A program made the translations under genes and the position numbers. A stretch of 64,000 nt of DNA, from assembly GCA_037447655.1 (NCBI GenBank), contig JBBHKE010002970.1:1-64000 (forward strand), given 5' to 3'. This DNA comes from Zygnema cylindricum. Lineage: Eukaryota > Streptophyta > Zygnematophyceae > Zygnematales > Zygnemataceae. Positions 17,827-63,812 of this stretch are shown one piece after another. How positions within the stretch are numbered: position 1 is the stretch's first letter; each line of letters begins with the position of its first letter. Under the pieces are notes generated by a model. That model did not search any database. It saw only the letters and a program-made list of their open reading frames with translations, and was not told the DNA's origin.

Positions 17827-20800
17827 CTGTTAGAAAACACATTAGCACACAACTTAGTTGAGCATGTAATGAGATTTTTTGACTTCCACAATTTTTTGAG
17901 TTTCTATTTTTTTTGAAGTCGCATGCACGTTAGCAAATAGGTTAACATTCTCCTACTATACCGTGAATCACTATTAGCGTCAATGTTTTTTTTGCCACTT
18001 AAAACATCTTTTCTCCGTACACACTTATTGGATTTTCAATTTGAGATCGCCAATCGGAAGCTGAGAATGTTACCTTTCAATCGCAGCCGTCAGATCCACA
18101 ATCCGACAAGTGTGTACGGAGAAAAGATGTTTTAAGTGGCGAAAAAAACATTGACGGTAATAGCGATTCGCGGTGTAGAGTAAACTCACCTTGGCGGGTC
18201 TTCCAATGTAATTGAAGACATTATCGGCAAATCCCTCGGGATTTATCGCCGGTGCGTTACCCTGCAACCATCAAACTTATGTATGTAAAGTGAAAACACC
18301 ACATTGATAGATTTCCAGAGTGATAGATTTCCGTGAAATCCGGGATCGGGAGGTAGATTTCCGTGAATTCCGGGATTTTCGGGATTTTTTTCAACACCAG
18401 TGATCTATTTCCGTGAAATCCGGGAATCGGCAGATACACCGCGCATCGTTATTAGTGTCAAAGCTTAAATAGTGTGTAAGTAAATATACCGTCATTGACG
18501 CTAATTAAGAATTTGAAAATTAAAAAAAAAAAGGTTTATTCTAATTTCAGTGTTAACGCTAATTTGGAACAGCAAAAATGGAAAATTTTCTGTACGATTA
18601 TATACATTATTATATATATCCGTACAAAATATAAAAAATCGTACACCGTAGTGAAATTTAAATATCCGTACATGTCAGACTTATTTACATGTCAGACCAA
18701 TCCCGTTTTTTTAGCGCACGTTCCCACGGAATGTCATCCTACGCCGTGTCAGTTCGCTAAAAAATTTCGTCCGGCGGCGTGCGCTGTACTTTGATCTTAC
18801 GTCAGATTCGGACGTTCGTACAGGAGTGTGCACGACGCACACACATACACATACAGTGCCTACGTTGCGCGAGTTTTGTGCAAAGTTTTGTGCGCCTACC
18901 AAAGGCCTACCATAAAAAAGCCTACTTTTGAACTATGATGTTAAGTGAAAACACCAGAGTGATAGATTTCCGTGAAATCCGGGATCGGGAGGTAGATTTC
19001 CGTGAATTCCGGGATTTCCGAGATTTTTTCAACACCAGTGATCTATTTCCGTGAAATCCGGGAATCGGCAGATACCATACTACGGAACATTGAGTCGGCC
19101 GGGATTCGAACCTGGGACTTTTCCCTTCAAGTAAAACGCACTACACCGCCAATCGCTATTAGCGTAGAAGTTTCTTTAGCGTATAAGAATAATTACAGTG
19201 GTGTACGGTAATTAAGAATTTGAAAATTTTGAAAAAAAACATACATTCTAATTGTTTTATAATTTTAATTTGGGTCTTTGAAAAAAAGAAATGTCGGTCG
19301 CAAACCTGCTTACACTAATATAAGTACTTGTACAAAATCTGACAAATCGTACACAAATCGTACGTTCACACAGTCGAAACGTGGTTGTAGGACGAATATG
19401 TGCGAACGTGATATTTGACAACCCGATTTTATCCCCTTTTTAGAGAGCATATTCTCATGCGTCAGCGGTTACTAAAACTCATTAACTATACTTTTTCACT
19501 TAAAAAGGTACAATTTTGTACGATCTGACACGTACCGTACACCACACTATTTAAACGACAACGTACTTTCCTTTTGTACGGTACTTGGAAAATAACCCTA
19601 AATGGCGTACAGAAACAAATAGAATAAGCTCGCTATTTGAGAATAATAAAAAAAAAAGCGGGACGGAATTAGCGTACACACGCTAATAGCGATTGGCGGT
19701 GCACCACTGTACCACCAGTTCGATGTAAATCCTAGCGGGTCCGTACCAATTTATTACAAGCGGCTTCGAGAATGAATATTACCATATTCTACCCCGTATT
19801 GAACCGGCATCCACGTGCCTATCCAACACAAAGAGCTACAAACATAATGCCTCACTATGAGTTATCCACATGACAGTAGTAAATGCCGTTGAAGGTTAGG
19901 ATGATACCAAATCTTGAGTAAATTATGTTATTCCCAAAACATCTTAATCCCGTCCAAAACTAACTCCCACATCCATTGAGAGAAATGAAAAGTGAATGTA
20001 ACGAAACGAAGTGGGTATCAAAGAGTCGATAGGAAGGGGGTTCAATGTTCATAACAGTCTTCCTATTTCAACACTTTCAACCGTGAACCTTCATTTGGAT
20101 TTTAACTGATTGGAAGTTGGTGCCACTAGAAAAAAACAATCTAAAAAACAAATCTCTTGTTTCATGTTGCATTAAAGAATCGAATCATCTTAGGGGGAAA
20201 GAGATGTGGAGTTGATACTATCTAGCCACATTATTCAAGTGTTGGTTTACCAAACAGGACCAAAGCGGCGTTGGACACCAAATGTGAGTATGAGGTTAGT
20301 TATGCCGCCACAATTTTCTGGTAATTAGATAATTTAGGGGCTCAAAAATCGTGGGCTCGTTGTTTATGAATCAGTTGCAACTACATCGTGAATCGCTATT
20401 AGTGTTAATAATTTTTTCGCCACTTAAAACAAGTTTTCTCCGTACACAATTGTCGGATTTTCAGTTTGAAACCGCCACTCAGAAGTTGAGAATGCTACCT
20501 TTCAATCGCGATCGTCAGATTCGAAATCCGATAAGTGTGTAAAAAATGTTTTTAGTGGCGAAAAAAACATTAACACTAATAGCGATTCACGGTGTACCAT
20601 TTCACTATCGCTTAAATACAAAGTATTGGGTTCAAATGGTTTCTTAATTTAAGTGGGTCATAAAGTTGGTACTCCGTAAATATTTATTTCATGAATGTCA
20701 CAGGAAATAAGAAAAAATATTAAACCTGTTTCAAAAGGTATAATGAAGGTTACACACTGACATTGACATTGGCATATGGCAGAGAAATACCTCCTGTCGT

Positions 20801-26800: not shown

Positions 26801-29800
26801 AAAAAACCGCCAACAAATATTGTCAATGTTGGATTGGCACGTGAATGCCAGTTCAATACGTGGTGTAATGTGGTACGCCTCGAGGCCGCCCGAAATAAAT
26901 GGGTACGGACCCGCCAGCTCTACATCAAGCTGGTGGCACAGTGGTTAGTGCGTTGACAGCTTAAGTCAAAGGTCCCATATTCGAGCCTTGGCCGGCTCAA
27001 ATTTCCTTAGTATGGGACATGTCGAATCCCAGATTTCTAGGAAATCTAACATGGTATCGGAGCCAGGGGGATTGCATACGGATTGACCGGCCTTCCCGTG
27101 AGGGGGGTGTTGGATTGGCAAGTGAATGGCACTTCAATACGGGGTGTAATGTGGTACGCCCACACTCGAAGCCGCCCGAAATAAATGGGCAGGGACCCGC
27201 CAGGCTCCACGTCAAGCTCAACCTGGTGGCACAACATCAAGCTCAAGCTGGTGGTGGCACAACATCAAGCTCAAGCTGGTGGCACAGTGCCAGTGGTTAG
27301 TGCATTGACAGCTTAAGTCAAAGGTCCTAGGTTGGAGCCCTGGGCGGCTCAAATTTTCCTAGCATGGGACATGCCAAATCCCGGATTTAAAGGAAATCTA
27401 CCCCAAAGCAAATTCATTAGGAGGCCGTGAAATTAATCTTCTGGTTATATTGGACTAGTGTTCCCATCTTGTGGACCGTTGGAGTTTTAGAGGTATTGTG
27501 GTGCAGGTTGGGGTGGAGACTTTAATTTAAGAAAGTCTACATCTCGTTACGGTTTTTTTTTCTTTGGAGTAGCAGTTTAATGAAATTGTCAAATCCACCC
27601 AACGGTGGCGTTAAGTTCCACGGAGGCCGAGTACAGGGTGGGATGTCATGTTGCAAAGGCTTTAGTTTGGGTGAAAGAGATGTTAAGAGAATTGTGGACT
27701 ATGGTTAGGTTTACGAAAATTCCTTACGTTGTACGAGTTTTATGGCCTTGGTTAAGAATTTTGTGTTTCAAAAGCATATGAAACACATCCGTATTCAGTG
27801 GCACTTAGTGAAAGATTTAGTGGTTGATAAAGTGATAGGTTTTCGTTATGTATTTCCGGTAGGGGAAACCACAAACTTTTGCTAAATCTACTATGCATGA
27901 TGCGTTTGTGATAGAACGACAAAAGGTAGGTTTAAAGTGACATGGTGCTAATATTCCCACAATGATAGCCTATTCCCACCGGAAAAAAATCACTTCTGCA
28001 ACAGACGGGCGTTCGAATAATGTACGGCCTTCCGAGCACCGACTTTGTTGTTCTCGGAAGTATAGAACTTCCTCATAATATTTGAGGATATTGAAGTTGG
28101 GTTAAGGTTGCGTCTTTCTTTGAAACAGGCCAACGGTAAACCCAAAAGCTGACGAAGCAAAAACAACATCCGAACGGCTATTTCATTGTTTCGCGTATTA
28201 GTAAGTTTGAAAAACTGCAGGTCTGTTTTCGCGCCTATGTTTGATGACGTCGAAGCATGTGACGTGTCACAATACACCTTCAATCGGAGGTATGTGCTAA
28301 AATTTTGGTGTGAACAAGACCCATTTTCCGATGAGTTCTGGGAAAATCATAGGAATGGGCAAAAAGTTACAAATGCTCCGGTGGGAATAGGCTATGAGAG
28401 AGGGAATGTTAAGATACATTGTCCAAATTGTGTTGGTTACATTGTTGAATAGCGTGAAGTGACGTTTCAACTAAACGAAATGTGTGTATAATATATAGCG
28501 TTCGCGTACAAAAGCGCTCTACATCGATGCGCGTCTACATGTGTATTGGTACGGAGGTGTTTCGTGCGTGTACTTCGCACGGGTGGATTAGCGACGCTAT
28601 GTTCCCAACGTCTATTTATTGCATCGATTCGCAAGTAAACAATTTGTGTCCGTTTGTAGCTTTGTACTTTTGTAATATTGGCGCCTTACGATTTCGTTTC
28701 TCGCCTATATTTGTATATTTGTCTGTACGTTTAGATTTTCGTGCGACACGTGGGAAAAAAAATCTTTTGAGTTTTCTTTTGAGTGAAAAGCGCCTTTGCT
28801 TGCTCTCCGCGTCGTCCTGTTTTTCTCACGAGGCCGCCACCTATGTTGTTAGATAGGCATGCACGACAATTGTGTGTGGGAGCTACTTAATTGCGGAGAG
28901 AGAAGTTTACAAAGTTATCTTTGTCTTATCTTTGGATCAATCTAGTTGTAGATGTGTGGATCCCACGTTTATGCTTAGTGACCAATTTGGAAGAGTGATG
29001 GAGATCATTCGTGATCAATTTGAAGAGAGATGAATGATAGATCGATACAATAATCAGAGTACACAAAGATAAGCGGAAGCAATAACAAAATATCACATAA
29101 GAGCGAGCATTCCACGGAAGCGAATGTATTCCATGGTAGTTTTTTTTCACAAAAAGATACTTCTCTCTCTCTCTACGCTTCAATATATAAGTTATTCAAA
29201 CGTAGCGTAAGTAAGACATACCAAACGAAACCGTACATAAAGTGAGCACTAAAGGCCTACCAATGAATTTGAGTCTACACTCGAAACAACAAAGTACCAA
29301 AGTAATATTCAAACGTATTCACTTGACTTAGAACGTCACCAAACAAAATCTACGCGAGAACAAGAATCAACAACGTAACTATGACGCCAACCAAAACACA
29401 ATCAAACTAAAAACCAAACTAGACAGCCGCGCGTCAGTCTCCCAACGCCGGATTACATATTTGACCCTAATAATGAAGATCCTTTGTGATCAATTGAGAG
29501 AGAGATGAAGATCCTTTGTCATCAATTCAAAGGTGTTCAAGATCCTTCGTGATCCATTCGGGGGAATAAAGGTGTCGAGGATTGTTATTGTTCCAGAGTG
29601 ATTGTTTAGAGAATATAGAGGAGATGAGTGTGTGGTGATGTAAAAGAAGCTTCCATCAAAACATATATAGTCCCTTTTGGCCAATTGTCATTTTTGAGAA
29701 TGCTTCCGCTGTGTAATGTCTTTTTGGTGGATACATAATTTTGTAGTGATTTATTTTATCGATCCTAACAAGTTAGTGTATGGGTTTGGTGGATGTCAGT

Positions 29801-32800: not shown

Positions 32801-35800
32801 ATCAACAAACCAATAAGCACCCTGCCCAAGTCCAACATAGCTACATTCAGTCATTATATCAACAGAATGCATTTAAAAAAAAGATAAATAAGAAAAAAAA
32901 CCATGAAACATTTTGACTAATCCATCCACAACATACAAATTAAAAGATGATGCAGCCATAGTATTATGGCGGTGTATCAATTAATTTTCTACACCCACCC
33001 ACCCTTTTAACTTTTGTTGTGTATATTCATGCACATATATGTTTATGAATTTACATACACGTAATTGTATACAAACACATATATGTAAATATATAACTAT
33101 ATATATTAATACGTATATATACACATGTATTGTTGTACAGGATATTTTTTCCTTTGACATTGTCATTCACTAGAAGCTTAAATAATCAGCTGTTCAATTA
33201 TTTATAAAAAGAGAAAACGCATAATTTGTTGAACAACCACAATTATTTGATGTTTATACAAATCGAGGATATGATTTTAGGCCAGCTGAAGATTCAAGAT
33301 TATGCCAAGTGACAGGTACACAAAAAAAACTTTTAATGATAATTCATACTGACAGTATTGCATGAAATAAATTTACCCTCAATTTGAGTGAATGAGTAAA
33401 GTTGTTTGCAAAAAAAATTGTGGACGTGAAATATTTTGTCCCCAAAAATGTTGTGGCACGTGTTACAACTGGGGAACTGGTTTTTAAGGTGTCACCTGGT
33501 CAAAAGATATGATTTTTCTTTTCCAAATTTAAATGTATACCTTCGTACGGCTGTATTAAGTCGTTTGTCCTATGTTAAGCCTTGTCGTATTCCAGCAATT
33601 TCAATGTTTTAAACATTTTTGCCAAATAGCAAATTAATCTTCCCTCTGTTTTCACCGCTGGTGAGAGTTCTCCTCCCCATTTTCTCTCCTCCACTGCTGT
33701 GGTATGTTTGTTGTCTTTTGAGCTGCTTTTCATTCTCCTCTCCACCGTATTTTTATTTCCTGTACTGTGTTTTGTGATCTCGTTCCTATTTTACAGACTT
33801 AGTTCGTCTTTTTTGCCTTGGTTGAAAAGAAGAAAAATTTTGCTTATGCAACCGCTCGTCATAACGTCGTGGCTACCTATGTTCTTGGTGCTCCTTATGT
33901 CTCCCTAGATCCTCTCGATAACACTGGTTTGGTGACTTTCCACAGTTCAGTCTGTGAGAGCTTCCCTAACGTCGTCGGTGTCAGAATCATCTTTGTTATT
34001 TCTTGTCATGGCATCTACATCTAATTTCTTTGGCTCAGGATTGTCACCTCTAAAAGAGAAAAAGAAAAAGAGGAAGAGTTTGTTGTTGACTTTTTTGGGC
34101 TATTTCTTACATCTTGTGATGCAAATCCGTTTTTGCTTCCCATGCTTCAGGCTTCCGGTTTGCCCTGTTTCTTTTTTTCCAGACTTTTCACGGAAAAAGG
34201 TTTGGTTAATTTTGATTCATCCGGGATTTTCGATTCCTCACTGGAATCTGCATCTGAAGGTGGTGAGGTGGTGATTGTGGCTGTCCTTGATTTGACGGAG
34301 TCAGGCCTTGTTGGTCGTTCGTTGACCTAACTTATTTCTTCTCTCTTGCCTTGATTTCGTTCTTCTATCATTACTATGTTCGCCAATGTTGACATTTATT
34401 GATGATCTATTGCCTGTTTTTCTTGGGTCTTCTAGGAATTGTGCTGAATGTCATCCTTATATGAGCCATGGAGCTGATTTTTCTCTCCTTCAACCGTAAA
34501 TTTATTGTGTACACACCTCAATTCAAGTTATCACTCTCTCCAACGTTCGTCACTTCGGATGGACTCCTCAACTTACGGACCGTAGTTTGGCCTCCTGGTA
34601 AGTCTCTATCTCCGAAATATGTAAGGAACGCCTTTTTACTTTCGAAATTTGTCAAGAACATATTTTTGCTTCTGGTAGGATTTTTTGTGAATTCGTCTTT
34701 ATCAGCTATTGGACTCTGATTCGTTTGGGGTTGCTCTTGTCAACATTGTAGTTTGAAGCACCAGTTGAATTTGGCTATTATATGCTTGATGTGTTGACGT
34801 ACGTAAAACGTGCTGATCAGTACCCGGAATTGTGGTAAAATCCACGATAAAACCTATATAATATTGGACCCACCAGCGTAACATCTGAGCTGGTGGTACA
34901 GTGGTTAGTACATTCACAGCTACAGTGAAAGGTCCCAGGTTCAAATCCTGGCCGGCTCATCAATCCCTTTATTGGGATCATCCATTCTGACCGGCTACCT
35001 CTCAAGGGGGGGTGTTGACGTACGTAAAACGTGCTGATCGATACCCGGAATTGTGGTAAAATCCACGATAAAACCTTTATAATATTGGACCCACCAGCGT
35101 AACATCTGAGCTGGTACATTCACAGCTACAGTGAAAGGTCCCAGGTTCAAATCCTTGCCGGCTCATCAATCCCTTTACTGGGATCATCCATTCTATCCCC
35201 AGATTCTAGGAATCTTAACGCACACCACGGGTATATCCAACTCTTCTCCTTCTTAGGAGTGTTGTTGTGTCGTCATTCTTTAATTCCTTTCATTCTCCTT
35301 GTTTACTTTCAATTGCAATTGTGGAGCTTTCAAAATTCGTTTCACGATGTGACTAGCTGGCTTTGTTAGACTCGAGTTCGAAAATCGCCTCAACAACCTC
35401 ATTCCATTCTCGCGTTTTCGAATCCTTTTACTCCAACTCGGTATTGGGTGGGAAATCTGAATCGTCGTTGAGAAATGTATGCTTTAGTCTCCGCTGTTAG
35501 GTTCATTGTGAAACGACGTCTTAGTTTTGTTGAGCGCCGTACTATAATCTATGTAGTTTGCGTGTGGCTTTGTTTGGCGTGGTGTGTTTAGTTTAGCTGA
35601 AATATAGTTTGGTGTGGTTTTAGAGCGTGGTACTTTAGTAATTTATTTTTGTACGGCGGTCTTATGTTTTCATGGAGTACCGCGTACAGTATGTAGTTTC
35701 GCAGGTACTCTATTTTAATTGGTTCGCACGCGTACCTTTGTACAACGTGCGATAGAGTAGTACCTTGTTTGGTTGGAGCTGGAGTATTTAGGACTTAGTC

Positions 35801-53800: not shown

Positions 53801-56071
53801 TTTAGGGAAGACCAACAAAAGATGTGAATGGATAGTGGACACCGAAGCCATTAGTTTTTTTTTTTTTTTTTAACTCTCACTGTTGGTTAGCTTTTACAGT
53901 ATTTGTACGTACTTTTGGTTTTCTAATTCTAGCCTTTAATGGTAGTGAACAATTTTCCTCTTCAATCAAGTTTTGTACTTTGATGGTTTAACCATCGCGT
54001 TTTTCATAATAAAGTCTTTCTTTTCTTTCATTAGTACAGTGTCCGTAGTTTTACGTACTTTTTAGGGTCATTGACTTTAGGGTTTTTCGGGTACATTTCG
54101 TATATTCCCGTATATATTAGCACAACTGCGCTACATTTACGTAGTGTCCGTGCATTTCCGTACTTTTTCGGATTATTTTACCTATTTAAGAAAAAAATTA
54201 GGATTTTTGGGTTATATTCCCGTACGTTCCCTTACATTTTAGTACAACTGCCGTAGTTTTTCCGTACTTTTAGGGTTTTTAGGGTACACTTTCTGTATAG
54301 TTTCGTACATTTCGGTAAATTTCCGTACTTTTTCAGATTTATTTTGGACTTTTTAAGGCCACATTTTCCGTTCATTTCAGTACATGTCGTAAATTTTCGT
54401 ACAAAACTGTACGATATTTAAGAAAATTATGAAATCTACGAATAAATATTGAAATCCGTATGAAATCTACGAATACTACGTAGTTTTCGCAAGAAAGTCG
54501 AAATCCGTAAGAATTGGACAACTATGCTACAAAGGCTATCGGCAACATTGTTCAGCTGATATTAATCCTAGTACTAGCTTTGGATCGATTGAGGTGTAGA
54601 GATGTAGATCCTTTGTGATCAATTACGAGAGAGGTGAAGATCCTTTGTGGTCAATTCAGAGGTGTTGAGGATCCTTAGTAACCCATTTGGATAATAGAGG
54701 TTCGCGTGTGATCACTATTGAGTGATCATTTAAGAGTGCAGAGAAAAGAGGGGAGAAGAATTGATGTAAAAGAGGCTTCAGCCAAAACATATAAATTCCC
54801 TTTTGGCCGATTGTCCCTTTTTATGAACGCTTTCGCTGCGTAATATTTTTTTGGTGAATATTTATTTGTGGAGAGTAATTTTTTATCGCTCCAACAATTT
54901 TGACCGTTTTTGCTCAATACTATAATGTGCTCAGTAAATAATTAAGAAGGTTAACACAAGACAATAACCCACTTCACATGCTTTTGGTATATAATCCACA
55001 GCCAGTCAGTCAAGTTGTTGTACTCCACTGGACCTCCAAGATAGACCGCCAAAAACAACATCATCATGCTTCCATTGTGATTTCGACTAAAGGAGTTGGT
55101 GAGGCATGAGTCGATTGAGTATGTAGAATATGCCCTCAGAACAGCAACTTTCATTCGATTAAGTCTCTCAATGTCATTTCCTCCTAACATCATCCATGTG
55201 GCTGATGGAGGAAAGCCTGCAAAACATGCACAGTTATAAGCATTGAAGCATGAGTAGTCCGCAGCACACATCTCTAAACAGTCCATATTGACAAAAAATA
55301 TCAGAAATTATATAGGGTCACTACACAATCAAAGTGCGCAGAAACGCACTAAAAACGAGCGGAACCTTATAAAACAAGACGTTCACTCACATCACATTCA
55401 CCATAACACATGCATTCGACCAATATCAATATATTTGGCGAATGTGTTTTCCTTTATAATGCCCTTTCTTCACTCTCACTTACTAAATCTGCAATGTAAA
55501 ATATAAAGGATTTAAAAAATCTAATATATCACACACGGCTCAATAGCCACCATGACTTTCTCTCAACACCACCAACTCTCCCTTTTGACACAAACACCAA
55601 ACGAGAAGACAAGTTCGCGCGACAACACAAATTCGCTAAGCAAACATATGTGTTGGATACGTGACGTGGTACCAAGTTTCATGTACGAAACAACATCTAT
55701 AATACTAACCGAAACATAGTTGGCACGAAATCCATACATGGACTGATTCGGCATGTCCCATACTGGGAAAAATTGAGCCATTCGGGCGACTTCGAGTGTG
55801 CCCATACCAGATTACACCCCGTGTTGAACCGGCATCCACGTGCCAATCCAACAATATCATCTATCAACAACTTCTATCCAAAGTGTAGTTACTTTCATTT
55901 CTTAAAATTTGTGCATAAATATTTCAAAAGAATAAATAATGCCAATCATATCGTACCTGAATAAGAAGGCTGTTTGTATGTGTTGGAGAATGACCATGGA
56001 GAATAACCACACAGATATGAAATAACAAAAATAAACCCAAACAAGCAAATTGTGGTTAGAAAGTAATACAT
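17662..56071 (-). CDS. Polycystin-2-like cation channel with LNR ectodomain, 19 exons
   Basis: Exons on the - strand, 5' to 3': 56071-55957, 55216-55024, 53556-53384, 53014-52907, 52228-52088, 51913-51764, 51510-51310, 45596-45455, 32821-32756, 31931-31709, 31193-30995, 30769-30472, 24068-23877, 23617-23437, 22994-22794, 22639-22469, 20919-20791, 18261-18190, 17826-17662. The total is 3,120 nt (1,039 residues) and every junction phase agrees. Layout: N-terminal hydrophobic helix (about 4-22), ectodomain with cupredoxin-like strand (about 175-196) and Notch/LNR repeat (about 306-336), polycystin/TOP domain (about 410-610), S2 (611-632), S3 (652-670), S4 (725-744) leading to RVLKMMHFQSRMG, S5 (765-788), pore with LLIGDNSF (about 808-815), S6 (827-857), then a charged C-terminus. 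TRP-family polycystins are Ca2+-permeable channels of cilia/flagella and endomembranes. No EF-hand is visible. Exon 1-3 and 8 choices are least certain. Confidence 0.85.
17957..18177. mobile_element. Foldback TA-type MITE, copy d, in polycystin intron 18
   Basis: Left end TATACCGTGAATCACTATTA, right end TAATAGCGATTCGCGGTGTA, with long complementary arms. It makes up 221 of the 363 nt of this intron and ends 12 bp from the exon-18 donor. Confidence 0.9.
18190..18261 (-). CDS. Polycystin exon 18
   Basis: Acceptor GGTTGCAG|GGT, donor GCCAAG|GTGAGT, phase 0 on both sides; 24 residues, GNAPAINPEGF to NYIGRPAK. Cytosolic linker between the two charged helices. Confidence 0.85.
18292..18436. repeat. 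Direct repeat, copy 1 (with 18942-19077)
   Basis: About 140 bp containing TAGATTTCCGTGAAATCC and GGATCGGGAGGTAGATTTCC shared nearly identically with 18942-19077. Its end corresponds to the 3' end of a minus-strand TRIM LTR, and a TA-type MITE terminus (TACACCGCGCATCG) abuts it at 18435. Confidence 0.8.
18437..18941. other. Truncated long TA-type MITE plus unknown sequence
   Basis: The left terminus at 18435 and the following TTAAGAATTTGAAAAT block match the left part of the complete element at 19142-19703. The expected right terminus is not found before the next repeat copy starts. Lies in polycystin intron 17. Confidence 0.5.
18942..19077. repeat. Direct repeat, copy 2
   Basis: Second copy of the 140-bp block at 18292. 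Here it continues uninterrupted into the tRNA-like part of a minus-strand TRIM LTR (GAGTCGGCCGGGATTCGAAC at about 19091). Confidence 0.8.
19045..19860 (-). mobile_element. Solo TRIM LTR split by a MITE insertion
   Basis: Minus-strand TRIM LTR pieces at about 19045-19141 and 19704-19860. The left piece holds the B-box side of the tRNA-like segment; the right piece holds the acceptor/A-box side (CCACTGTACCACC) and the LTR start (complement of TGTTGGAT...GCACGTGG). Rejoining across the MITE restores the order seen in other copies. Confidence 0.75.
19142..19703. mobile_element. Complete long TA-type MITE (562 bp) inside a TRIM LTR
   Basis: Termini TACACCGCCAATCGCTATTA and TAATAGCGATTGGCGGTGCA are inverted repeats of over 20 bp. 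The interior matches 1-535. The flanking host sequence is a TRIM LTR, so the empty site is known and the insertion point is a TA (right flank now CA), consistent with a Tc1/mariner-type target. Confidence 0.85.
20382..20596. mobile_element. Foldback TA-type MITE, copy e, in polycystin intron 17
   Basis: TACATCGTGAATCGCTATTA at the left and TAATAGCGATTCACGGTGTA at the right, with CTCCGTACACAATTGTCGG and its complement inside. No coding capacity. Confidence 0.9.
20791..20919 (-). CDS. Polycystin exon 17
   Basis: Acceptor TGTGTTTAG|CAGGCAGGC, donor CAGGAG|GTATTT, phase 0; 43 residues (YDHLREVAESAKNERCEQ, then ITKEEILDLVKRVIRRQE). Charged amphipathic helices of the cytosolic tail. The acceptor is a NAGNAG (TAGCAG), so one Gln could be included or skipped. 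Confidence 0.85.
20920..22468. other. Polycystin intron 16
   Basis: 1.55 kb, AT-rich, with a poly-A run at 21278-21299. No element termini or reading frame recognised. Confidence 0.5.
22469..22639 (-). CDS. Polycystin exon 16
   Basis: Acceptor TTTTGCAG|GAT, donor AAATTT|GTAAGTCC, phase 0; 57 residues directly after S6. Ends in a short proline run (RPPPPATP). Post-S6 cytosolic region; no EF-hand loop is visible. Confidence 0.9.
22794..22994 (-). CDS. Polycystin exon 15: pore and S6
   Basis: Acceptor CGCGCAG|TTT, donor ATAAAG|GTATAT, phase 0; 67 residues. FRSIPMSMNAMLNLLIGDNS is the pore helix and filter (human PKD2 has ILGD at this place), followed by S6, FYWSFIFIVYLLGLNLLIAI, and the VDAY motif that ends S6 in polycystins. 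Confidence 0.95.
23437..23617 (-). CDS. Polycystin exon 14: S4-S5 linker and S5
   Basis: Acceptor TTTACTGCAG|TAT. The donor is GAG|GCAAGT, a GC-AG intron, chosen because it is in phase and joins RTFSE to FRSIP exactly as the family requires. Contains RVLKMMHFQSRMGIITRT and S5, FFILFFIIFLCYSLYGHILL. Confidence 0.9.
23877..24068 (-). CDS. Polycystin exon 13: S3-S4 loop and S4 start
   Basis: Acceptor GGATGCAG|GAT, donor ACAAA|GTAAGT; 192 nt with a split codon at each end. Contains YIIYDLSPGKFFELL and NLIHARKTYFAFQAT, which reads into S4 (NILCMIF) of exon 14. Too short and too interrupted to show as a long open frame, but phase and family alignment fit on both sides. Confidence 0.85.
24487..24880 (+). 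mobile_element. LTR-X copy 1, one arm of an inverted pair
   Basis: GTGACGCTTCAGGAACCGCA to TGACGGTTTGAGTTGGACGT (24541-24697) is repeated in inverted orientation at 25351-25500, and in direct orientation, more diverged, at 28440-28620. The inner part 24698-24720 also pairs with 24850-24877. The inverted pair can form a hairpin with arms of about 180 bp. Confidence 0.7.
24886..25342. mobile_element. hAT-type non-autonomous element, 457 bp
   Basis: Terminal inverted repeats CAGAGGTCGCAA and TTGCGACCTCT. The flanking 8-bp direct duplication CCAGATAT (24878-24885 and 25343-25350) is perfect. An 8-bp duplication with a CAGAGG terminus is the hAT pattern. The interior is GGGTA/GACCGG-rich and non-coding. 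Same family as 46044-46797. Confidence 0.9.
25343..25540 (-). mobile_element. LTR-X copy, inverted arm
   Basis: Reverse complement of 24541-24697 with about 10% differences, broken from its inner part by the hAT insertion at 24886-25342. Confidence 0.75.
25600..25880 (+). repeat. LTR-Y segment, copy 1
   Basis: Matches 29912-30210 over most of its length: AGTTTGTGTTA-GTGTTA start, GAGTAGTGG, GTGAGTAATCA, and GTGAGTGATTA-ATGCTTCC. In both places it lies downstream of an LTR-X copy. X and Y may therefore be the two halves of one long LTR with different insertions between them, bracketing the copia body at 26155-27870. Confidence 0.6.
26927..26998 (+). other. tRNA-like cloverleaf in TRIM LTR (copy T1)
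   Basis: 72 nt: acceptor arms AAGCTGG/CCGGCTC, D arm GCAC/GTGC, anticodon stem TTGAC/GTCAA with loop AGCTTAA, B box TTCGAGCC. The T stem is partly mispaired. U33 is replaced by G, so a working tRNA is unlikely; an internal Pol III promoter remains possible. Confidence 0.75.
27273..27350 (+). other. tRNA-like cloverleaf in TRIM LTR2 (copy T2)
   Basis: Same segment as T1 with a 6-nt duplication in the D arm (CAGTGCCAGTGG). Anticodon stem TTGAC/GTCAA intact. Confidence 0.65.
28408..28900 (+). mobile_element. LTR-X copy 2
   Basis: Starts TGTTAAGATACATTGTCC and continues with AGTGACGTTTCAACTAAACG and GCGCGTCTACATGTGTATTG, matching 24505-24640. The start resembles those of the minus-strand LTRs at 32551 and 45277 (TGTTRGGGTACATTGTG-like). 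Probably the 3' LTR of copia remnant C. Confidence 0.6.
28920..29190 (-). repeat. LTR-like segment, minus orientation
   Basis: Contains GATCATTCGTGATCAATT and, in reverse, the AGCGGAAGC motif found in other LTRs here (32115, 47403 complement). Ends near a short CT run at 29163-29174. Boundaries not defined. Confidence 0.4.
29474..29769 (+). mobile_element. LTR-D copy 1
   Basis: Shares with 54590-54897 the blocks GATCCTTTGTGATCAATT, GATGTAAAAGA-GCTTC, CCAAAACATATA, CCCTTTTGGCC and GCTTCCGCTGTGTAAT. Probable solo LTR or TRIM; no coding. Confidence 0.65.
29912..30210 (+). repeat. LTR-Y segment, copy 2
   Basis: Second copy of 25600-25880. Ends about 260 bp below polycystin exon 12, inside intron 12. 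Confidence 0.6.
30472..30769 (-). CDS. Polycystin exon 12: end of TOP domain, S2, S3
   Basis: Acceptor CCCTTGCAG|CCT, donor CACCTG|GTATGT. 298 nt, split codons at both ends. YKQTFTLTKVKLTFQNGG is the last strand region of the polycystin domain; S2 is YIRLVLEFTILLFVAIAIIL; FVNGWNWLDIFSLSLMVYG is the conserved W-N-x-x-D start of S3. Confidence 0.95.
30995..31193 (-). CDS. Polycystin exon 11: TOP domain core
   Basis: Acceptor TTGTTTCAG|GGA, donor CCCTT|GTATGT. 66 codons plus one nt. ADGVFFDSLTRRTDFKLLTY is the family's hallmark (F-x-D-x-x-TR followed by a strand and the YN-like turn, here YTS). Confidence 0.93.
31709..31931 (-). CDS. Polycystin exon 10: TOP domain N-terminal half
   Basis: Acceptor ATATGCAG|GTT, donor ATAAAT|GTAGGT. 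223 nt. Contains DMCPRYP, WGFAPPFLPNSVLYNSTY and GVPYGFKPVEIN, matching the luminal part of algal polycystin domains. Several N-x-S/T sites fit an extracellular location. Confidence 0.88.
32060..32551 (-). mobile_element. Solo LTR, minus strand (LTR-E copy 1)
   Basis: On the - strand it starts TGTTAGGGTACATTGTGC at 32551, immediately preceded by a purine tract (GAGAGGAGGAA), as a 3' LTR would be. A related start lies at 45277. The far boundary is approximate. Confidence 0.55.
32756..32821 (-). CDS. Polycystin exon 9 (22 residues)
   Basis: Acceptor CTTGGGCAG|GGT, donor GGGAG|GTAAGT. 66 nt coding VLIGLLITQIRATDRGFC and KTG, the short motif (N/S-RV-x-x-G-x-LL-x-Q-x-R) that opens the polycystin domain in algal relatives. 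Found by phase: it needs one leading and two trailing nucleotides, and it has them. Confidence 0.85.
33313..33643. repeat. 331-bp repeat, copy 1
   Basis: Nearly identical to 39896-40229 (CTTTTAATGATAATTCATAC ... AGCAAATTAATCTTCC). It has no obvious terminal inverted repeats or TG/CA ends. Confidence 0.9.
34887..34958 (+). other. tRNA-like cloverleaf in TRIM-B LTR1 (best-preserved copy)
   Basis: 72 nt fold as: acceptor GAGCTGG/CCGGCTC (7 bp with one G-U), D stem GTAC/GTAC, anticodon stem TTCAC/GTGAA with 7-nt loop AGCTACA, variable AGGTC, T stem CCAGG/CCTGG with loop TTCAAAT. A box TGGTACAGTGG and B box GGTTCAAATCC match Pol III consensus. Positions 34-36 would read CTA; base 33 is G instead of U. 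Confidence 0.85.
35108..35164 (+). other. tRNA-like segment in TRIM-B LTR2, D arm deleted
   Basis: Same as 34887-34958 but missing 15 nt that include the A box. Anticodon and T arms are intact apart from one change (CCTTG). Confidence 0.75.
35495..35946 (+). mobile_element. 5' LTR of copia element A
   Basis: Starts TGTTAGGTTCATTGTG and ends CTTTCTTACCA (TG...CA). Two bases later the primer site TGGTATCGGAGC starts at 35949. No matching 3' LTR was found downstream, so the element is incomplete. Confidence 0.7.
36006..37306 (+). pseudogene. copia A gag (UBN2-type) with frameshift before zinc knuckles
   Basis: A start ATG at 36006 (MGGKKKKSTTTPSH) is followed by stops. The main gag frame (36392 onward) carries NGSNYQIWKKYIKA, AHECWKALEGQFEKG and DDAIKRYNIIVEQLSNNG, the UBN2 gag domain of copia elements. 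Near 37180 the frame shifts, and two intact CCHC zinc knuckles (CFRCNKAGHMSSSC and CHYCGKWGHISPLC) are in the neighbouring frame. Confidence 0.85.
37489..37722 (+). pseudogene. copia A protease
   Basis: EWIVDSGASHHVC holds the D-S-G-A active-site motif of the retropepsin, followed by a glycine-rich strand. Frame broken downstream. Confidence 0.85.
37795..38941 (+). pseudogene. copia A integrase, broken
   Basis: HHRMCHTSKQNLKRM (H-H of the zinc domain), KCDNCILSK (C-C), VHVDLCVDV, YIMVIVDDYSRFTWVYLL (catalytic D-D region), SNGIAERKN (catalytic E) and FVGYCSKE in three frames with a stop at 38286. Sequence stops matching copia after about 38941. The downstream partner is probably copia B. Confidence 0.88.
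38942..39895. other. Unknown insertion between copia A and the 331-bp repeat
   Basis: About 950 bp, GC-richer than its surroundings, with CGCG/CGTAC words (for example GCGATTTCGCG near 39374) and a CGCACGCACGCGAACACGCG run at about 39820-39850. No coding capacity recognised. Confidence 0.4.
39896..40229. repeat. 331-bp repeat, copy 2, fused to copia pol
   Basis: About 98% like 33313-33643. At 40230 it passes without a gap into copia B sequence (TTGTACGATCTGATGGAGTT) that corresponds to 37803 in copia A, so the junction is a recombination or truncation point. Confidence 0.9.
40230..43190 (+). pseudogene. copia B: integrase, reverse transcriptase and RNase H, many stops
   Basis: Integrase 40386-41288 (HHRMCHKSQQNLKRM, IMVIVDDYSRFTWVYLL, DNGGEFKAF, SGIFVGYSSKGSLYRVYD). 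RT 41701-42420 (KAIDAKWIFKTKL, CKGFQQVEGVDYSEIYAPVV, QMDVETTFLNGELEEEVYMK, SLYGLKQASRTWYLRL; the YVDD box is broken by a frameshift). RNase H 42590-43130 (GSLMYLSVGTRPDIAAAV, PTVALSSTEFEYMA). At least six frameshifts or stops. Same family as copia A. Confidence 0.9.
43281..43400 (-). repeat. tRNA-derived fragment after copia B
   Basis: On the - strand GGTTAGAGCTGACGGC then GGTTCGAGTCCTGCCGGAC resemble an A box and a B box of a tRNA, but stems pair poorly and no complete cloverleaf is found. It may belong to a SINE or to another LTR with a tRNA-like insert. Confidence 0.4.
43401..44849. other. Intron 8 remainder, no gene seen
   Basis: Overlapping open frames at 43440-43818 and 44125-44731 have no recognisable domain and no family support. 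Possibly LTR or gag debris. Confidence 0.35.
44850..45277 (-). mobile_element. LTR-like, minus strand (LTR-E copy 2)
   Basis: On the - strand starts TGTTGGAGTACATTGTGC at 45277, resembling 32551. Inner blocks (GCACTTTGG, GAGAGAAAACTTTGGC) are comparable. Boundaries approximate. Confidence 0.5.
45455..45596 (-). CDS. Polycystin exon 8
   Basis: Acceptor GAAACTGCAG|CTT, donor AGCAG|GTGCGC. 142 nt, phase-compatible with exon 7 (one nt left) and exon 9 (one nt needed). Encodes CCLGGAIGVDLEVPFVLTTY and LEADLTLSRDSTLTRRVG. Phase is the main support; the sequence itself is not a known domain. Confidence 0.65.
46044..46797. mobile_element. hAT-type non-autonomous element, 754 bp
   Basis: Ends CAGAGGTCGCAAA and TTTGCGACCTCTG are perfect inverted repeats. 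The flanking 8-bp duplication CTGTTGGG (46036-46043 and 46798-46805) is perfect. The interior shares the TTAACCGTTAACCGACCG and GAACGGATTCGG-type blocks with 24886-25342 in inverted orientation. No transposase. Confidence 0.93.
46287..46540 (+). repeat. Four tandem 62-65-bp units inside the hAT element
   Basis: Each unit reads TTGTCGCGTTCCCTAAGATT, GCGAAATGAATAG, ACTGTGTCAGATTTGCGACG with small changes; the fourth is the most diverged. Absent from the shorter relative at 24886. Confidence 0.9.
46806..47170 (+). mobile_element. LTR-X related segment, copy 3
   Basis: ATCGTTGAATCGCC, GCGAAGTGACGTTTGAATAA and the later GAAAGCGTGTGCGCCT correspond in order to blocks at 28445-28470 and 28785-28805. 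The hAT element inserted at its left edge. Confidence 0.55.
47286..47460 (+). repeat. LTR-D fragment (3' part)
   Basis: GATGTAAAGAGGCTTTGGCC, TTTTTGGCTGAA, GAGCTTCCGCTGTGATTA and GAGAGCACTATTTTTAGATC match the second half of 29474-29769 and 54590-54897. Confidence 0.55.
47461..49091. other. Polycystin intron 7, part without features
   Basis: No gene supported. Open frames at 48615-49009 (+) are short and unrecognised. Confidence 0.35.
49092..50060 (-). pseudogene. Ty1/copia remnant D (pre-integrase and integrase), minus strand
   Basis: From 50060 downwards on the - strand: VLYVPNFKTKL (the VLYVPxLxxNLLS motif after the protease), GNLVHKMMHEIGL, CHGCDMGKSH (integrase zinc C-C), ELMRSHVWGPM, YIFTFIDDYTRVTQTFLLRLKS (first catalytic Asp region). 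Stops at several places. Lies in intron 7, same strand as the gene. Confidence 0.8.
50061..51309. other. Polycystin intron 7, part next to exon 7
   Basis: No gene seen. A homopolymer CCCCCCCC/TTTTTTTT run is at 50302-50320. Confidence 0.4.
51310..51510 (-). CDS. Polycystin exon 7: Notch/LNR repeat
   Basis: Acceptor TTCTATGCAG|AGA, donor GATGGAG|GTGAGT. 66 codons. CSDDC, LSNGRCDEECNN and CSSDGGDC give the six-cysteine Lin-12/Notch repeat pattern with the Ca2+-ligand Asn/Asp residues (N of CNN, D of DGGDC). A second Cys-rich stretch (CGCPFDESGISSCPCP) follows. Confidence 0.9.
51764..51913 (-). CDS. Polycystin exon 6
   Basis: Acceptor GTCTTGCAG|AGT, donor AGCG|GTGAAA. 49 codons, YPSSPAGTFSFSFWFNEE to GYINFLPNS. 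Beta-rich ectodomain sequence with one N-glycosylation site (NET). No family recognised. Confidence 0.75.
52088..52228 (-). CDS. Polycystin exon 5
   Basis: Acceptor TCTATGCAG|AAA, donor CACTTG|GTAAGC. 46 codons (FGNTASYWYDSMGGERNVLS, CTPVNLMTPAC). Ectodomain, probably continuing the cupredoxin-like module begun in exon 4, though the usual copper Cys/His/Met pattern is not seen. Confidence 0.75.
52907..53014 (-). CDS. Polycystin exon 4: cupredoxin-like strand
   Basis: Acceptor TTTGTCCAG|CTG, donor TATCAG|GTTAAA. 35 codons. NVTVNDVVTWVWTDDNPHSL matches the V-x-V-G-D-x-V-x-W-x-W-x-D-D-x-P-H pattern of plastocyanin-like domains; the His would be the first copper ligand. The remaining ligands are not evident downstream, so copper binding is doubtful. 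Confidence 0.8.
53384..53556 (-). CDS. Polycystin exon 3
   Basis: Acceptor TTTTTACAG|TAT, donor AAACTG|GTGAGC. 57 codons (ITVGQDATDRLFDILVSAIG, LYTHFHKLNAPG, NPYYRSC). Reads like the second half of an SEA-like extracellular module, but I cannot assign it. Confidence 0.75.
53880..54500. repeat. Degenerate repeat rich in CCGTACTTTT and TTTAGGGTTTTT
   Basis: Loosely repeated units of roughly 60-140 bp built from TTCCGTACTTTT, TTTAGGGTTTTTCGGGTAC and CCCGTACATT words, in intron 2. TTTAGGG is the plant telomere unit, but here never in pure arrays. Confidence 0.5.
54590..54897 (+). mobile_element. LTR-D copy 3
   Basis: See 29474-29769: same order of blocks, including CCCTTTTGGCCGATTGTCCC. Lies in polycystin intron 2. 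Confidence 0.65.
55024..55216 (-). CDS. Polycystin exon 2
   Basis: Acceptor TGTTTTGCAG|GCT. The donor is placed at GTGGA|GTACAA because it is the one in phase with exon 3; the splice signal itself is mediocre and other GTs exist nearby. 63 codons (SATWMMLGGNDIERLNRM, VAVLRAYSTYSIDSC, NHNGSMMMLFLAVYLGG). Ectodomain, perhaps an SEA-like alpha/beta module. Confidence 0.65.
55330..55560 (-). repeat. LTR-like segment, minus orientation
   Basis: Shares the order GTTCACTCACATCACATTCACC, CCTTTATAATGCCC, TTCACTCTCACTTACT (in + orientation) loosely with 32130-32220. In polycystin intron 1, antisense boundaries unclear. Confidence 0.35.
55735..55855 (-). mobile_element. Solo TRIM LTR fragment
   Basis: GATTCGGCATGTCCCATACT, GGGAAAAATTGAGCCATTCG and ACCGGCATCCACGTGCCAAT match the two ends of the TRIM-A LTR on the - strand, with the tRNA-like middle deleted. 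Confidence 0.7.
55957..56071 (-). CDS. Polycystin exon 1: start and signal-anchor helix
   Basis: ATG at 56071-56069 is the first in-frame Met after an upstream in-frame TAG. MYYFLTTICLFGFIFVISYL is a hydrophobic helix, followed by CGYSPWSFSNTYKQPSYS. Donor TTCAG|GTACGA, phase 1, fits exon 2. Since S2-S6 are counted downstream, this helix must stay uncleaved as S1 if the usual six-helix topology holds. Confidence 0.7.
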
Positions 56072-56679: not shown

Positions 56680-56880
56680 ATGTTAAAATTCCACAAATTT
56701 CGGTATTGGGCATGCACCACACTTGGGAAAAGTGAGCCGGCATGGGCTTGAACCTGAGACCTTTCCATGTAGGTGTGAATGCGCTAACAACTGTGCCACC
56801 AGCCCGATAATGTCTTCTAGCGGGTCCATGCTCATTTTTTTGAGTCATTTCGAGTGTGGGTGTTAGGCAACTTAATTTAT
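56680..56880 (-). mobile_element. Solo TRIM LTR upstream of the polycystin gene
   Basis: Same orientation as the gene, 0.6 kb upstream of its ATG. Carries a full-length tRNA-like segment at 56734-56805. Confidence 0.75.
56734..56805 (-). other. tRNA-like cloverleaf in solo TRIM LTR (copy T8)
   Basis: 72 nt on the - strand: GGGCTGG/CCGGCTC acceptor, GCAC/GCGC D stem, T-arm loop TTCAAGC. The anticodon stem is partly mismatched. Confidence 0.75.
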
Positions 56881-57159
56881 GTATTTATAGTCAAGGGTGC
56901 CACAAGGTGAAAAGGAAGAAGTGAGCCCCAATAGAAGCACAATTGTTCCTTCGGAATGTTCTAAACAAAGTTGCAATCTCCTTCTATGTTCTACAAAGGA
57001 ATCCTAATAAGAATGTACAAAACAGTTGATGAAATAAAAATAATGCTTCCAAAATTGCCATGAGTGATATGTGAGAGGTTCGTCGCGTCACGTCACGTCA
57101 CATACATTCGAGTCGATAACGTTTGTCGATATTGATGAATTGCCAAAGATCGCATAAAC

Positions 57160-57235
57160 CAACAGTGAGCGGACCACATTACACCCCGATATTGAACAAC
57201 AACCTCGTGCCAATTCAACATTCACACTAAGAATT
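57160..57235 (-). mobile_element. TRIM LTR 5' end fragment
   Basis: GGACCACATTACACCCCGAT and CGTGCCAATTCAACA are the complement of the TRIM LTR start. Confidence 0.6.
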
Positions 57236-58245
57236 GTGGTGACGTTGACTTCTAGAATCTTGTAGACGCTCAAAACAAATTGCAAAAATGTGATTTTTTC
57301 CATATCCGGTAGCTCATACAAAGGCGCACACGACAAATGATTTTTTGTGAAAAGCATATTTTTTACAACAGATTTAGGGCTGATAACATAAAATTTTGGA
57401 ATGACCTTTCACGTTGACGGAGGGCGACCTCCGTAACCACACACATAAAAGGGTATCAAAAATTGAATCCAATCCATAGGCCGATTTTTGCTATCCCTTG
57501 GAGTCGCACTTTTAGATACTCCTCGAGTTCAATGCAATATATCTTTTTTACCATGTTGACCCATATTCACCATATATCTTGCTTCTTCTTCTATTTCAAA
57601 AACAACTTTCTCGAATCATCTTTAACCTCTCTTTGGTCATATACGTGTCGTCATCGTGAGTGCGTGGAATGCTTGACGCAAACTCACCATTAAGCTTCTG
57701 AATCCTTGAAAAGGTCGATATTTACGAATGTACCATCCTCAAATCATGCAGGACTGTGCGTAGCTTTGATGGCACCGATTTGACACTCGTTATGTCGTTA
57801 TTTGACTGCTACAGAATATTGTGTGAATCAATGGATCGACTGAAGTCGAGTGAAGTATGTTTGTCTCCTTTAATTCGTTAATCTATACATCGATTCGTTT
57901 CGTGCAATATAGATGCTATTTTTTTTAGTCAGATATAGTTTAGTGCATCGTAGTACTTTGCATGTGTTTTTCATCTTGTTTCATTTTGTTATTGAGAAAA
58001 GCGCGTCTATGCTTTCTTGTGTGTCGTCCTCTTCAACAATGAACAAGTAGTGGTCCAGTCATGGTTTAAATCTGTTTTCTTTCAGTAAGTGGAGTAAGTG
58101 GAGGATCATATTAAATCAGGAGTTTGTTATTTACGCGTTAGAAAGTAAGGACAGTATATAAGGGGCAAAAGATCAATCTAACATACACGTATTGGATTGA
58201 GTTTCTTGTGGTTGTGGTGATGCTTGGAGTGAAATGTGTTAATTT
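57236..58245. other. Intergenic, no gene seen
   Basis: No supported gene. 57880-58060 resembles parts of the LTR-X family (GAAAAGCGCGTCTATGCTTT versus GAAAAGCGCCTTTGCTTGCT at 28788). Confidence 0.4.
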
Positions 58246-58808
58246 CCTAGAAATCTGAGATTCGGCATGTCCTATACTAGGGAAAATTGAGCCGGCCAGG
58301 GCTCAATCTGGGACCTTTCACTTCAGTTGCAAACGCACTACCACCAGCTCGATGTAGAGCCTGGCGGGTCCGTACCCATTTATTACGGGCGGCTACAAGT
58401 ATGCATCATCCATATTCTACCCCGTATTGAACCAGCATTCACGTGCCAATCCAACACACCCCCCTCACGGGGAGGCCGATCAATCCATCCACAATCCCGC
58501 TGGCTTTGATACCATGTTAGATTTCCACGAAATCCAAGATTCGGCATGTCCCAATCTAGGAAAAAATGAGCCGGCCAGGGCTCGAACCTGGGACCTTTCA
58601 CATTAGTAACACTACCACTATGCCAGATACTGGGACCTTTCACTTTAGTAACACTACCACTGTGGTTCACTTTAGTAACACTACCACTGTGCCTGTAGCT
58701 CAATGTAGAGCCTCAATGTAGAGCCTCGCATTTATTACGGGCTGCTACGACTATGGATATTCCATATTCTACCCCGTATTGAAGTGGCATTCATGTGCCA
58801 ATCCAAAA
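58246..58808 (-). mobile_element. TRIM-A copy 2, minus strand, complete
   Basis: Read on the - strand: LTR about 58808-58521, primer site complement at 58506-58520 (ATGGTATCAAAGCCAGCGGG on that strand), internal part of about 45 bp ending in the purine tract CGTGAGGGGGGTG, second LTR 58462-58246 starting TGTTGGATTGGCACGTGAAT. Tandem duplications of a TTAGTAACACTACCACT unit sit inside the first LTR's tRNA-like region. Confidence 0.88.
58289..58350 (-). other. tRNA-like segment in TRIM-A copy 2
   Basis: Acceptor GAGCTGG/CCGGCTC intact; part of the D loop deleted (62 nt). The T arm retains GGTCCCAG and GAGCCCTGG. Confidence 0.65.
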
Positions 58809-58879: not shown

Positions 58880-59015
58880 AGGTAGAGTGTGCTGAATTAG
58901 TAAGAGGCCTCCACTCAATATCGGGGTGCAATGAGGTCCGCCCACACTCGAAATGACTCAAAGTAAATGAGTGCACACCCGCTACACTTAATATGAGGGC
59001 TGGTGGCGATGTAGT
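58880..59015 (+). mobile_element. TRIM LTR fragment
   Basis: CTCAATATCGGGGTGCAATG, CGCCCACACTCGAAATGACT and GGGCTGGTGGCGATGTAGTT follow the order of a TRIM LTR 5' half on the + strand; the tRNA-like part is cut off at the direct repeat starting 59018. Confidence 0.6.
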
Positions 59016-59017
59016 TG

Positions 59018-59552
59018 AAAACCAGAGTGGACCATTTCGAGTAACCAAGTGAAGACTTGGGACGACGGACGTCCAATCCAGCAAAGGAAACTCACGTCCA
59101 ATCTTAGATTTGTCACGGAGTGCAAAGATTAAAAATAATAGGAGAGGGAGAGGAATTCACATGTAAACAAGATAGGTGGAGGCTTTTAGAAATCCATTAA
59201 AGAAAGTAGGAAGAATATATAATGTAAATCTGTACAGTTTTGTCCCTATCAATAAAGCATTGTCTTGAACTTGCCTCTCTGTAAATGATGATCTACGTTT
59301 GCAAAAACAACCTACTTAACTCTAACACCAAAAAAAGAATCTAAGTGGCAATCCAATGACAAAACGCCACGTGCCTAATCTGACAAACTACAATAATGGG
59401 CCTACAATAATGCACTTGCAGAGGCGCTGACACACATGCCCACCCAAAATAATGTACCCTAAATATCGTGGGTCAAAGTACGTAGGATTCGATTTCGCAT
59501 GAGACCAAAATCGGCTAAGTACTAAATTGGAATAATTGTCCAGAGTCGCACT
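59018..59552 (+). repeat. Long direct repeat A1 (possible LTR)
   Basis: Matches 62882-63465 throughout: TGAAAACC start, GACGTCCAATCCAGC, CCTATCAATAAAGC (polyadenylation-like AATAAA), GAGGCGCTGACACACAT, end GAGTCGCA. TG...CA ends and the poly-A motif suggest LTRs, but no primer site follows A1. Confidence 0.8.
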
Positions 59553-59862
59553 AAAAACAACACTCCCACTCGATTCTGCGCCGATTTATTCGTAGCTTTG
59601 ACCGGGACCATGGTTGACCGCAAACCTTCCTTGAAATGCGATGAAGTATTCAACGATCAAATCCCAACGACACGTGATAGAATCGTTGCCATACGTTCAA
59701 AAAGCAGATTTGTACTTTGACGTAACTTCCATAAATATAAGTTTCGCTGTCAATTTTGATCCGTACAAGACCGTTTGAAACTAGATGTGGCAATGCGTAA
59801 ATGCCACGATAGCGTGCAGAACCATTTCAAACAACAAATGCACCTGCAAAAATTTGATTCAT

Positions 59863-61960: not shown

Positions 61961-62032
61961 GGCATCTAAATTGAAGTTTTGTAGAGAGGAATGTGGAATT
62001 AGTGGCTGAGAGAGTCTAAAGGTTTAGGGGAG

Positions 62033-62690: not shown

Positions 62691-62778
62691 AGGGTGAGTC
62701 TAGTTTGCTTGGGGCTTCATTGTGAAGTTGGTCTTTTGTGGGGTTTTTGTGAGAGTTTCTTCTGTGTATTGATTATTA

Positions 62779-62832
62779 TGGCAACTGCCGGTGCTTCTTC
62801 TTCATCCGGGGCACCAATTGCCTCAGGAAAAC
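62779..62832 (+). pseudogene. copia-type gag start, truncated
   Basis: ATGGCAACTGCCGGTGCTTC encodes MATAGASSSSGAPIASGKHH, a typical Ala/Ser-rich gag start. It breaks into the direct repeat A2 after about 18 codons. Confidence 0.45.
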
Positions 62833-62881
62833 ACCACAGACGTCCAATCCAGCAAAGAAAACTCATGTCCAATCTCAGATT

Positions 62882-63465: not shown

Positions 63466-63474
63466 CAACAGTAG

Positions 63475-63812
63475 TTAGCAAAAGGTCCCAGGTTCGAGCA
63501 GCTTGACCGGCTAAATTTTCCCAAGTGTGGGACATGCCAAATCCTAGATTTTGCGGGACTGTAACATGGTATCAGGGCCAACGTGATTGTGGATGTATTG
63601 ATCGGCCTCCACTTTAAGCGGGGTTGTTGAATTGGAAAGAGGTTGTCATTCAATATCAGGGTACTGGAAATGACTCAAAATAAAATACTACCGACCCGCA
63701 AAACATGAAATGCGGGTTGGTGACTAAGTGGTTAGCGTGTTCGGAGTCTTAGCCGGCTCAGTTTTTCCAAGAGTGGGATTTGCTAAATCCTAGATTCTAT
63801 CAAATTTTAACT
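63475..63812 (+). mobile_element. TRIM-A copy 3, eroded
   Basis: Partial LTR (63475-63562) with B-box side CCCAGGTTCGAGC, primer site TGGTATCAGGGCC at 63564, short internal part ending AAGCGGGGT, second LTR from about 63627 (TGTTGAATTGGAAAG) with a damaged tRNA-like part (GGTTGGTGACTAAGTGGTTA to TAGCCGGCTC). Confidence 0.75.

Follow-up and report, generated by a model that had tools for sequence, protein, structure and literature searches.

Helenus-type TRIMs of Zygnema cylindricum share between LTR families a tRNA-like module whose cloverleaf fold appears to be selected

The TRIMs found in the window (the whole stretch of 64,000 nucleotides analysed, positions 1 to 64,000 of contig JBBHKE010002970.1 in Zygnema cylindricum assembly GCA_037447655.1) are of the Helenus type, a kind known since 2024, with Helenus-1_SMo compared by description only. 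On the basis of sequence comparison, it is considered fairly probable that these elements are moved in trans and driven by Pol III from a tRNA-like segment in their LTRs, that the fold of this segment probably also acts as RNA, and that the segment has been exchanged as a module between LTR families by template switching.

The element at 26827-27402 was read from the sequence as a TRIM of 576 bp with two LTRs, an interior of 56 bp, a PBS and a purine tract, which is the miniature LTR element that the initial annotation had described. The 5' LTR (26827..27051, +) is that of an f1-type copy and runs from TGTTGG to CTAACA; it is followed by a PBS of the initiator tRNA-Met type (27052..27067, +; TGGTATCGGAGCC, one mismatch to the pattern searched), for which initiator tRNA-Met is presumably the primer. 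The purine tract GAGGGGGG (27100..27107, +) stands directly before the 3' LTR (27108..about 27402, +). LTRs of the TG...CA type had been claimed, and this holds for the 5' LTR and fails at the 3' end of the copy, where CA is missing. Likewise, a cloverleaf had been assigned to each LTR: the 5' LTR contains one of 73 nt (26927..26999, +; Rfam tRNA, 35.3 bits; second in the window in a cloverleaf scan), while the segment of the 3' LTR (27279..27351, +; from sequence reading and cloverleaf score) is disturbed by extra bases in the D arm and out of tRNA spacing, with a tandem duplication upstream of the D arm and TTTT close behind. Mutations were found in the T stem and B box of the 5' LTR, the LTR pair is 83-84% identical over its aligned parts, and a search for a target duplication around the copy found none. 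This is an old copy of a TRIM, putatively non-coding.

The same plan had been reported at 34.8, 58.2 and 63.5 kb and in solo LTRs at 19.0 and 56.7 kb, and all of these proved real. The f2-type TRIM at 34790..35221 (+), of which the 5' LTR end and PBS are missing, combines other LTR flanks with the same kind of module, and the cloverleaf of its 5' LTR (34887..34959, +; Rfam 54.2 bits) was called tRNA-Pyl CTA by ARAGORN. The f1-type TRIM at 58237..58808 (-; target duplication CATTT) has rearranged or shortened tRNA-like segments. The TRIM at 63.5 kb starts at 58.9 kb and is of type f1b: its left part (58890..59015, +) breaks off within the D arm, where a Copia element has inserted (59016-63470; target duplication GTAGT), and its right part (63471..63812, +) comprises the remainder of the 5' LTR, the PBS (63567-63579) and the 3' LTR, with the target duplication GAGTG seen by eye. 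An f1b solo LTR (56682..57220, -) holds a solo-LTR-like insert and a tRNA-like segment at 56733-56805 scoring 20.7 bits, below the Rfam cut-off of 29; an f1 solo LTR (19035..19828, -) carries in its D loop a MITE-like insert measuring about 560 bp; and an f1 LTR remnant (55737..55853, -) has lost its tRNA-like segment. Two of the three nested insertions in window TRIM LTRs (the Copia at 59016-63470 and the MITE-like insert at 19.14-19.71 kb) lie in the D loop or A box, and the third, near 56.89-57.16 kb, lies upstream of the tRNA-like segment; the insertions in the D loop or A box could reflect targeting to Pol III sites or chance.

When every position of the window was scored on both strands for tRNA pairs and conserved bases, the three highest scores fell at 34887 (+), 26927 (+) and 56805 (-), all of them in TRIM LTRs. 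Counted by eye, an unbroken cloverleaf is present in 3 of the 11 window LTRs, and in two others a foreign transposon interrupts the D arm. An Rfam scan of the whole window at the gathering score (29 bits for tRNA) returned the 34.8 kb copy only, and a scan of 801 bases at E<=1 returned no match at 26.9 kb; shorter stretches gave 35.3 bits (26927-26999, from a scan of 111 bases) and 20.7 bits, and the misses at 26.9 kb in the longer scans are probably due to speed filters. Fold energies of five single window copies gave z values of -1.99 (34887), -0.44 (26927, no better than shuffles), -0.81, 0.83 and 0.78.

The assembly (352.8 Mb, 2689 contigs) was searched with the 26827-27402 element and with the f2 element, which gave at least 84 matches (40 scored of 872 candidates) and at least 77 matches (40 scored of 777 candidates), respectively. 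Better-kept copies measure about 515 bp in the f1-type and about 512 bp in the f2-type (overall about 510-515 bp), with LTRs of about 222-230 bp and interiors of 56-66 bp (64-66 bp in the f2-type). In f1-type loci with coordinates that allow the check, the tRNA-like segment starts about 105-107 bases into the LTR, and across both families its start lies about 97-106 bases from that of the LTR. ARAGORN called a tRNA gene in all 20 f1-type loci, and 20 Rfam tRNA matches of 37-57 bits were obtained in nine of the ten f1-type loci scanned, the tenth, L023, giving no Rfam tRNA match. Exact 5-bp duplications adjoin the TG and CA ends in 11 of the 20 f1-type loci, three of which are arrays, and occur at 8 distinct places among 30 f2-type loci, several of these loci being the same place. 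LTR pairs identical in 229 of 229 columns were found in two of the 20 f1-type loci. Judging by the identical LTR pairs of the f1-type and by exact target duplications, some genome copies are young. The three f1-type arrays have 3 to 5 LTRs and a single duplication enclosing the entire array; LTR and interior alternate head to tail, with one 5-bp target duplication bounding the whole, at L025, L026, L027, L072 and L086, L072 being an f2-type array with 4 LTRs. Four subfamilies, the borders of which are our own assignment, were distinguished: S1 (e.g. L017) and S2 (e.g. L026) with f1-type flanks, and f2 (e.g. L061 and window position 34887) and f2S (e.g. L073) with f2-type flanks.

The initial annotation knew of no well-described family like this one; Helenus, which has the same plan, was described in 2024 (Kojima 2024, PMC10886601, in the text covered). 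As in the Helenus elements of plants and fungi described there, the present elements are short, putatively non-coding TRIMs with two LTRs (576 bp here, about 515 bp in the f1-type and about 512 bp in the f2-type), carry a tRNA-derived sequence with A and B boxes in each LTR (whole in the 5' LTR only in the 26827-27402 copy), have a PBS and a polypurine tract between the LTRs, and are flanked by 5-bp target duplications (11 of 20 f1-type loci; 8 distinct f2-type places among 30 loci). Tandem arrays are shared with Helenus LTR-11_DR, and some rust Helenus families were called tRNA-Sup-CTA (PMC10886601, same text), a CTA call being found here as well (34887, tRNA-Pyl). The only plant Helenus described in that text, Helenus-1_SMo from Selaginella, has an LTR of 120 bp and an interior of 85 bp, compared with 222-230 bp and 56-66 bp here. 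According to its introduction, predicted secondary structures of Helenus gave no support for tRNA function (PMC10886601). The elements were also proposed to be the tRNA counterpart of Cassandra, and they are indeed TRIMs carrying a tRNA-like segment in their LTRs. In the covered text of PMC7215508, Cassandra likewise has a Pol III-type promoter in its LTRs, the PBS TGGTATCAGAGC and long tandem arrays, and in that of PMC10853983 its 5S promoter boxes are conserved amid variable surroundings; Cassandra LTRs, however, hold 5S rRNA sequence, whereas those of the TRIMs here are tRNA-like, and Rfam gathering scans of the window and ten loci returned tRNA only and no 5S rRNA. Three features were not found in the described Helenus, as judged within the open-licence literature: compensatory evolution of the cloverleaf, a fixed TTTT and module exchange. 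The covered text of PMC10886601 contains no account of compensatory evolution of the cloverleaf, nor the word itself, and no terminator behind the segment (the sole mention of a terminator concerns Cassandra), and it does not describe the module passing from one LTR type to another.

For the analysis of the segment, a set of 46 distinct segments with intact register was taken from the window and 50 loci, 52 of the 264 motif anchors (including repeated matches to one place) being left out. At position 33, 42 of these have G, three have A, one has C and none has T, and the tRNA-like segment, with U33 in 0 of 46, is not a decoding tRNA. That it is a working tRNA gene spread by a transposon is thus hardly credible: Rfam scores reach 56.9 bits and ARAGORN calls in f1-type loci name Glu, Gln and others, as such a gene would lead one to expect, but T33 is missing throughout and subfamilies disagree in their apparent anticodon (CTC, CTG, CTA). 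In a comparison with 18 distinct tRNA gene calls (30 loci; initiator tRNA outside the comparison), at most 52 columns were identical in alignments of 77-79 columns, which is not diagnostic of an origin from a known tRNA gene.

Sequence relationships between the subfamilies indicate that the tRNA-like module is exchanged between LTR families. Segments of S2 and f2S are identical at 69 of 72 bases, while their upstream and downstream flanks agree in 45% and 51% of columns, which looks near chance if chance is set at the level of the S1/f2 shuffles; S1 and f2 flanks, compared by a slightly different measure, agree in 47% and 51% against 43-44% when shuffled. S1 and S2 segments, although set in flanks of one type, agree at just 65 of 73 positions. 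Furthermore, a mosaic at L071:1331-2050 is composed of part of an S1 LTR, an f2 interior, an f2 LTR, an S1 interior and an S1 LTR, with one switch at or beside the LTR/PBS junction. It is the near-identical module in LTRs with near-chance flanks, together with a mosaic joining both families, that points to exchange, and template switching between co-packaged RNAs would be its most likely and simplest source.

A tRNA-like part far more alike between LTR families than its flanks would also be expected if a SINE had inserted separately into different LTRs, and insertion of a SINE, with SINE2 as the source of the segments, has been proposed for the origin of Helenus (PMC10886601, text covered). 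A and B boxes derived from tRNA are common to the tRNA-headed SINE2 elements and to the TRIMs here, which differ from SINE2 in having LTRs, a PBS and a purine tract. Separate insertion is nevertheless very unlikely here, since the segment occupies a similar LTR position in both families, neither a tail nor a flanking repeat was seen by eye around it, the upstream block GGACCC[AG]CCAG is shared, and the L071 mosaic demonstrates exchange. Independent insertions at different positions, which would have contradicted the initial annotation, were thus not seen, and the 5-bp duplications lie at the outer LTR ends and not around a tRNA-headed unit without LTRs. A single ancient SINE insertion may be the origin of the segment.

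The block GGACCC[AG]CCAG (26907-26917 and the same place elsewhere) occupies bases about -21 to -11 relative to the segment start in LTR families with otherwise unrelated-looking flanks, and can pair with the acceptor strand and variable loop. The alternative fold of upstream block and segment was matched in 68, 30, 16, 14, 1, 9 and 367 of 400 mononucleotide shuffles in seven cases.

The stems of the consensus, on which the proposed cloverleaf depended, pair and covary. Paired stem cells amount to 94.7% in the 46 segments against a shuffle mean of 90.5, a value reached by none of 500 shuffles, the rows having been chosen by A-box, T-arm and 3' acceptor motifs, which raises pairing there and not in the anticodon stem. 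Stem cells changed on both sides number 48 against a shuffle mean of 18 (reached by 0 of 500). Pairs with a double change number 4 in the 46-row set, not above the shuffles (mean 4.0; 342 of 500), and exceeded the shuffles in a set of 10 rows (10 of 500). Between S1 and f2, the six stem differences form three compensated pairs (11-24, 27-43 and 29-41) and none is broken, a result equalled by random placement of six changes in 70 of 200000 trials. For S1 and S2, where two pairs are compensated and a third goes from A-U to G-U, the figure is 196 of 200000, and for S2 and f2, where one pair is compensated and another goes from G-U to A-U, it is 2224 of 200000. The A-U to G-U change between subfamilies is at pair 30-40. 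The cloverleaf is the minimum-energy fold in three of four subfamily representatives and within 0.2 kcal/mol of it in the fourth, and the acceptor stem is intact in the representatives. Stem differences between subfamilies thus keep pairing, whereas among one-sided changes confined to individual copies 49 of 82 destroyed the pair, and for this reason the RNA fold, and not the promoter boxes alone, looks to be under selection, with few independent stem events.

The A and B boxes are all that a Pol III promoter needs, and the anticodon stem lies outside that promoter. The cloverleaf might accordingly have been kept merely through its two boxes while the remainder drifts, a reading to which the small number of independent stem events lends itself. 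We regard it as unlikely, since the acceptor stem is intact in the subfamily representatives and two of the three compensated pairs fall in the anticodon stem, which is no part of the promoter and was not used in choosing the rows, so that a purely promoter role appears insufficient. A fold kept in the non-promoter anticodon arm suggests that the cloverleaf probably acts as RNA too; export of an uncapped transcript from the nucleus, packaging and the pairing of two RNAs are conceivable roles. In its strongest form, which we put forward tentatively as a possibility, the tRNA-shaped RNA itself would be needed: the cloverleaf would form the R region and serve as an RNA signal, be it for export, for packaging or, by way of the AGCU loop, for dimer formation (AGCT at positions 32-35 is kept in 41 of 46 segments), would be passed as a module between otherwise unrelated LTRs by template switching, and would have its pairs kept by compensatory change.

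Pol III transcription of the TRIMs is likely, judging from their promoter and terminator motifs. Both types, f1 and f2, have largely kept their A and B boxes. Of 47 f1-type LTRs examined, 41 could be anchored, and every one of these 41 has TTTT after a single base beyond the segment; a run of at least four T is found in seven of nine f1-type trailers in the window, the 5' LTR of the 26827-27402 copy having TTT only. Inside three window elements, TTTT is depleted no more than composition predicts. Unless Pol III reads through it readily, this f1-type TTTT would be expected to cut many transcripts short at about 80 nt. Pol III would bind at the A and B boxes and begin transcription close to the segment's first base; in the f1-type, a stop at the first TTTT would give a short tRNA-like RNA, and read-through to the TTTT of the 3' LTR would give the full-length RNA envisaged in the initial annotation, with the tRNA-like segment as the terminal repeat R. 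Such a read-through RNA would resemble the Cassandra transcript, which according to the covered text of PMC10886601 runs from the 5S sequence of one LTR into that of the other; the same text states Pol III transcription of Helenus as not validated. Mobilization in trans would be by the proteins of LTR elements, probably Copia. RNase P or Z, by cutting the tRNA-like RNA, could harm replication of the element.

The f2-type lacks TTTT behind the segment and has CCCTTTATTGG there in most copies printed, and it may end, or even start, transcripts differently from the f1-type. Most f2-type copies printed have TATATAA(AA) about 30 bases upstream of the segment, as in the TATA box TATATAA at -32 to -26 of the window copy (34855-34861), the exceptions being L076 (TATATTAA) and the 3' LTR of the window f2 element (TTTATAA); the f1-type has an AT-rich stretch at the corresponding place, with AATAAA in some copies. 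Transcription could therefore be by Pol II from a TATA about 30 bp upstream, the segment forming the 5' end of a capped RNA as a structure only or as a relic, and the upstream motifs of both types and the missing TTTT of the f2-type are in its favour. We consider this doubtful, because Pol II has no need for the A and B boxes conserved in both types nor for the f1-type TTTT, and an upstream TATA-like motif is also in use in plant tRNA genes.

The elements bear on a point left open when Helenus was proposed from consensus sequences, namely the role of the tRNA part beyond the promoter (PMC10886601, text covered). Since the present genome has young f1 copies, and since the module also occurs in a second LTR family, stem changes of source lineages can be set against those of single copies, and this role is thereby open to ordinary experiment. 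Caution is needed in annotation, as tRNA finders label these LTRs Glu, Gln or Pyl tRNA genes.

Some neighbouring features of the window were also recorded. An exon-like ORF (30408-30827, -) weakly resembles an ion channel (Ion_trans at 21.1 bits, the cut-off being 25) and matched four polycystin-2 chains in PDB with E values of 0.25-0.55. At 43344-43290 (-), a B-box-like GGTTCGAGTC occurs about 40 bp upstream of the ATG of an apparent Copia gag start. In the stretch 35949-37468, a PBS-like TGGTATCGGAGCT stands upstream of a Copia gag (36359-37468), its primer type being the same as that of the TRIMs.
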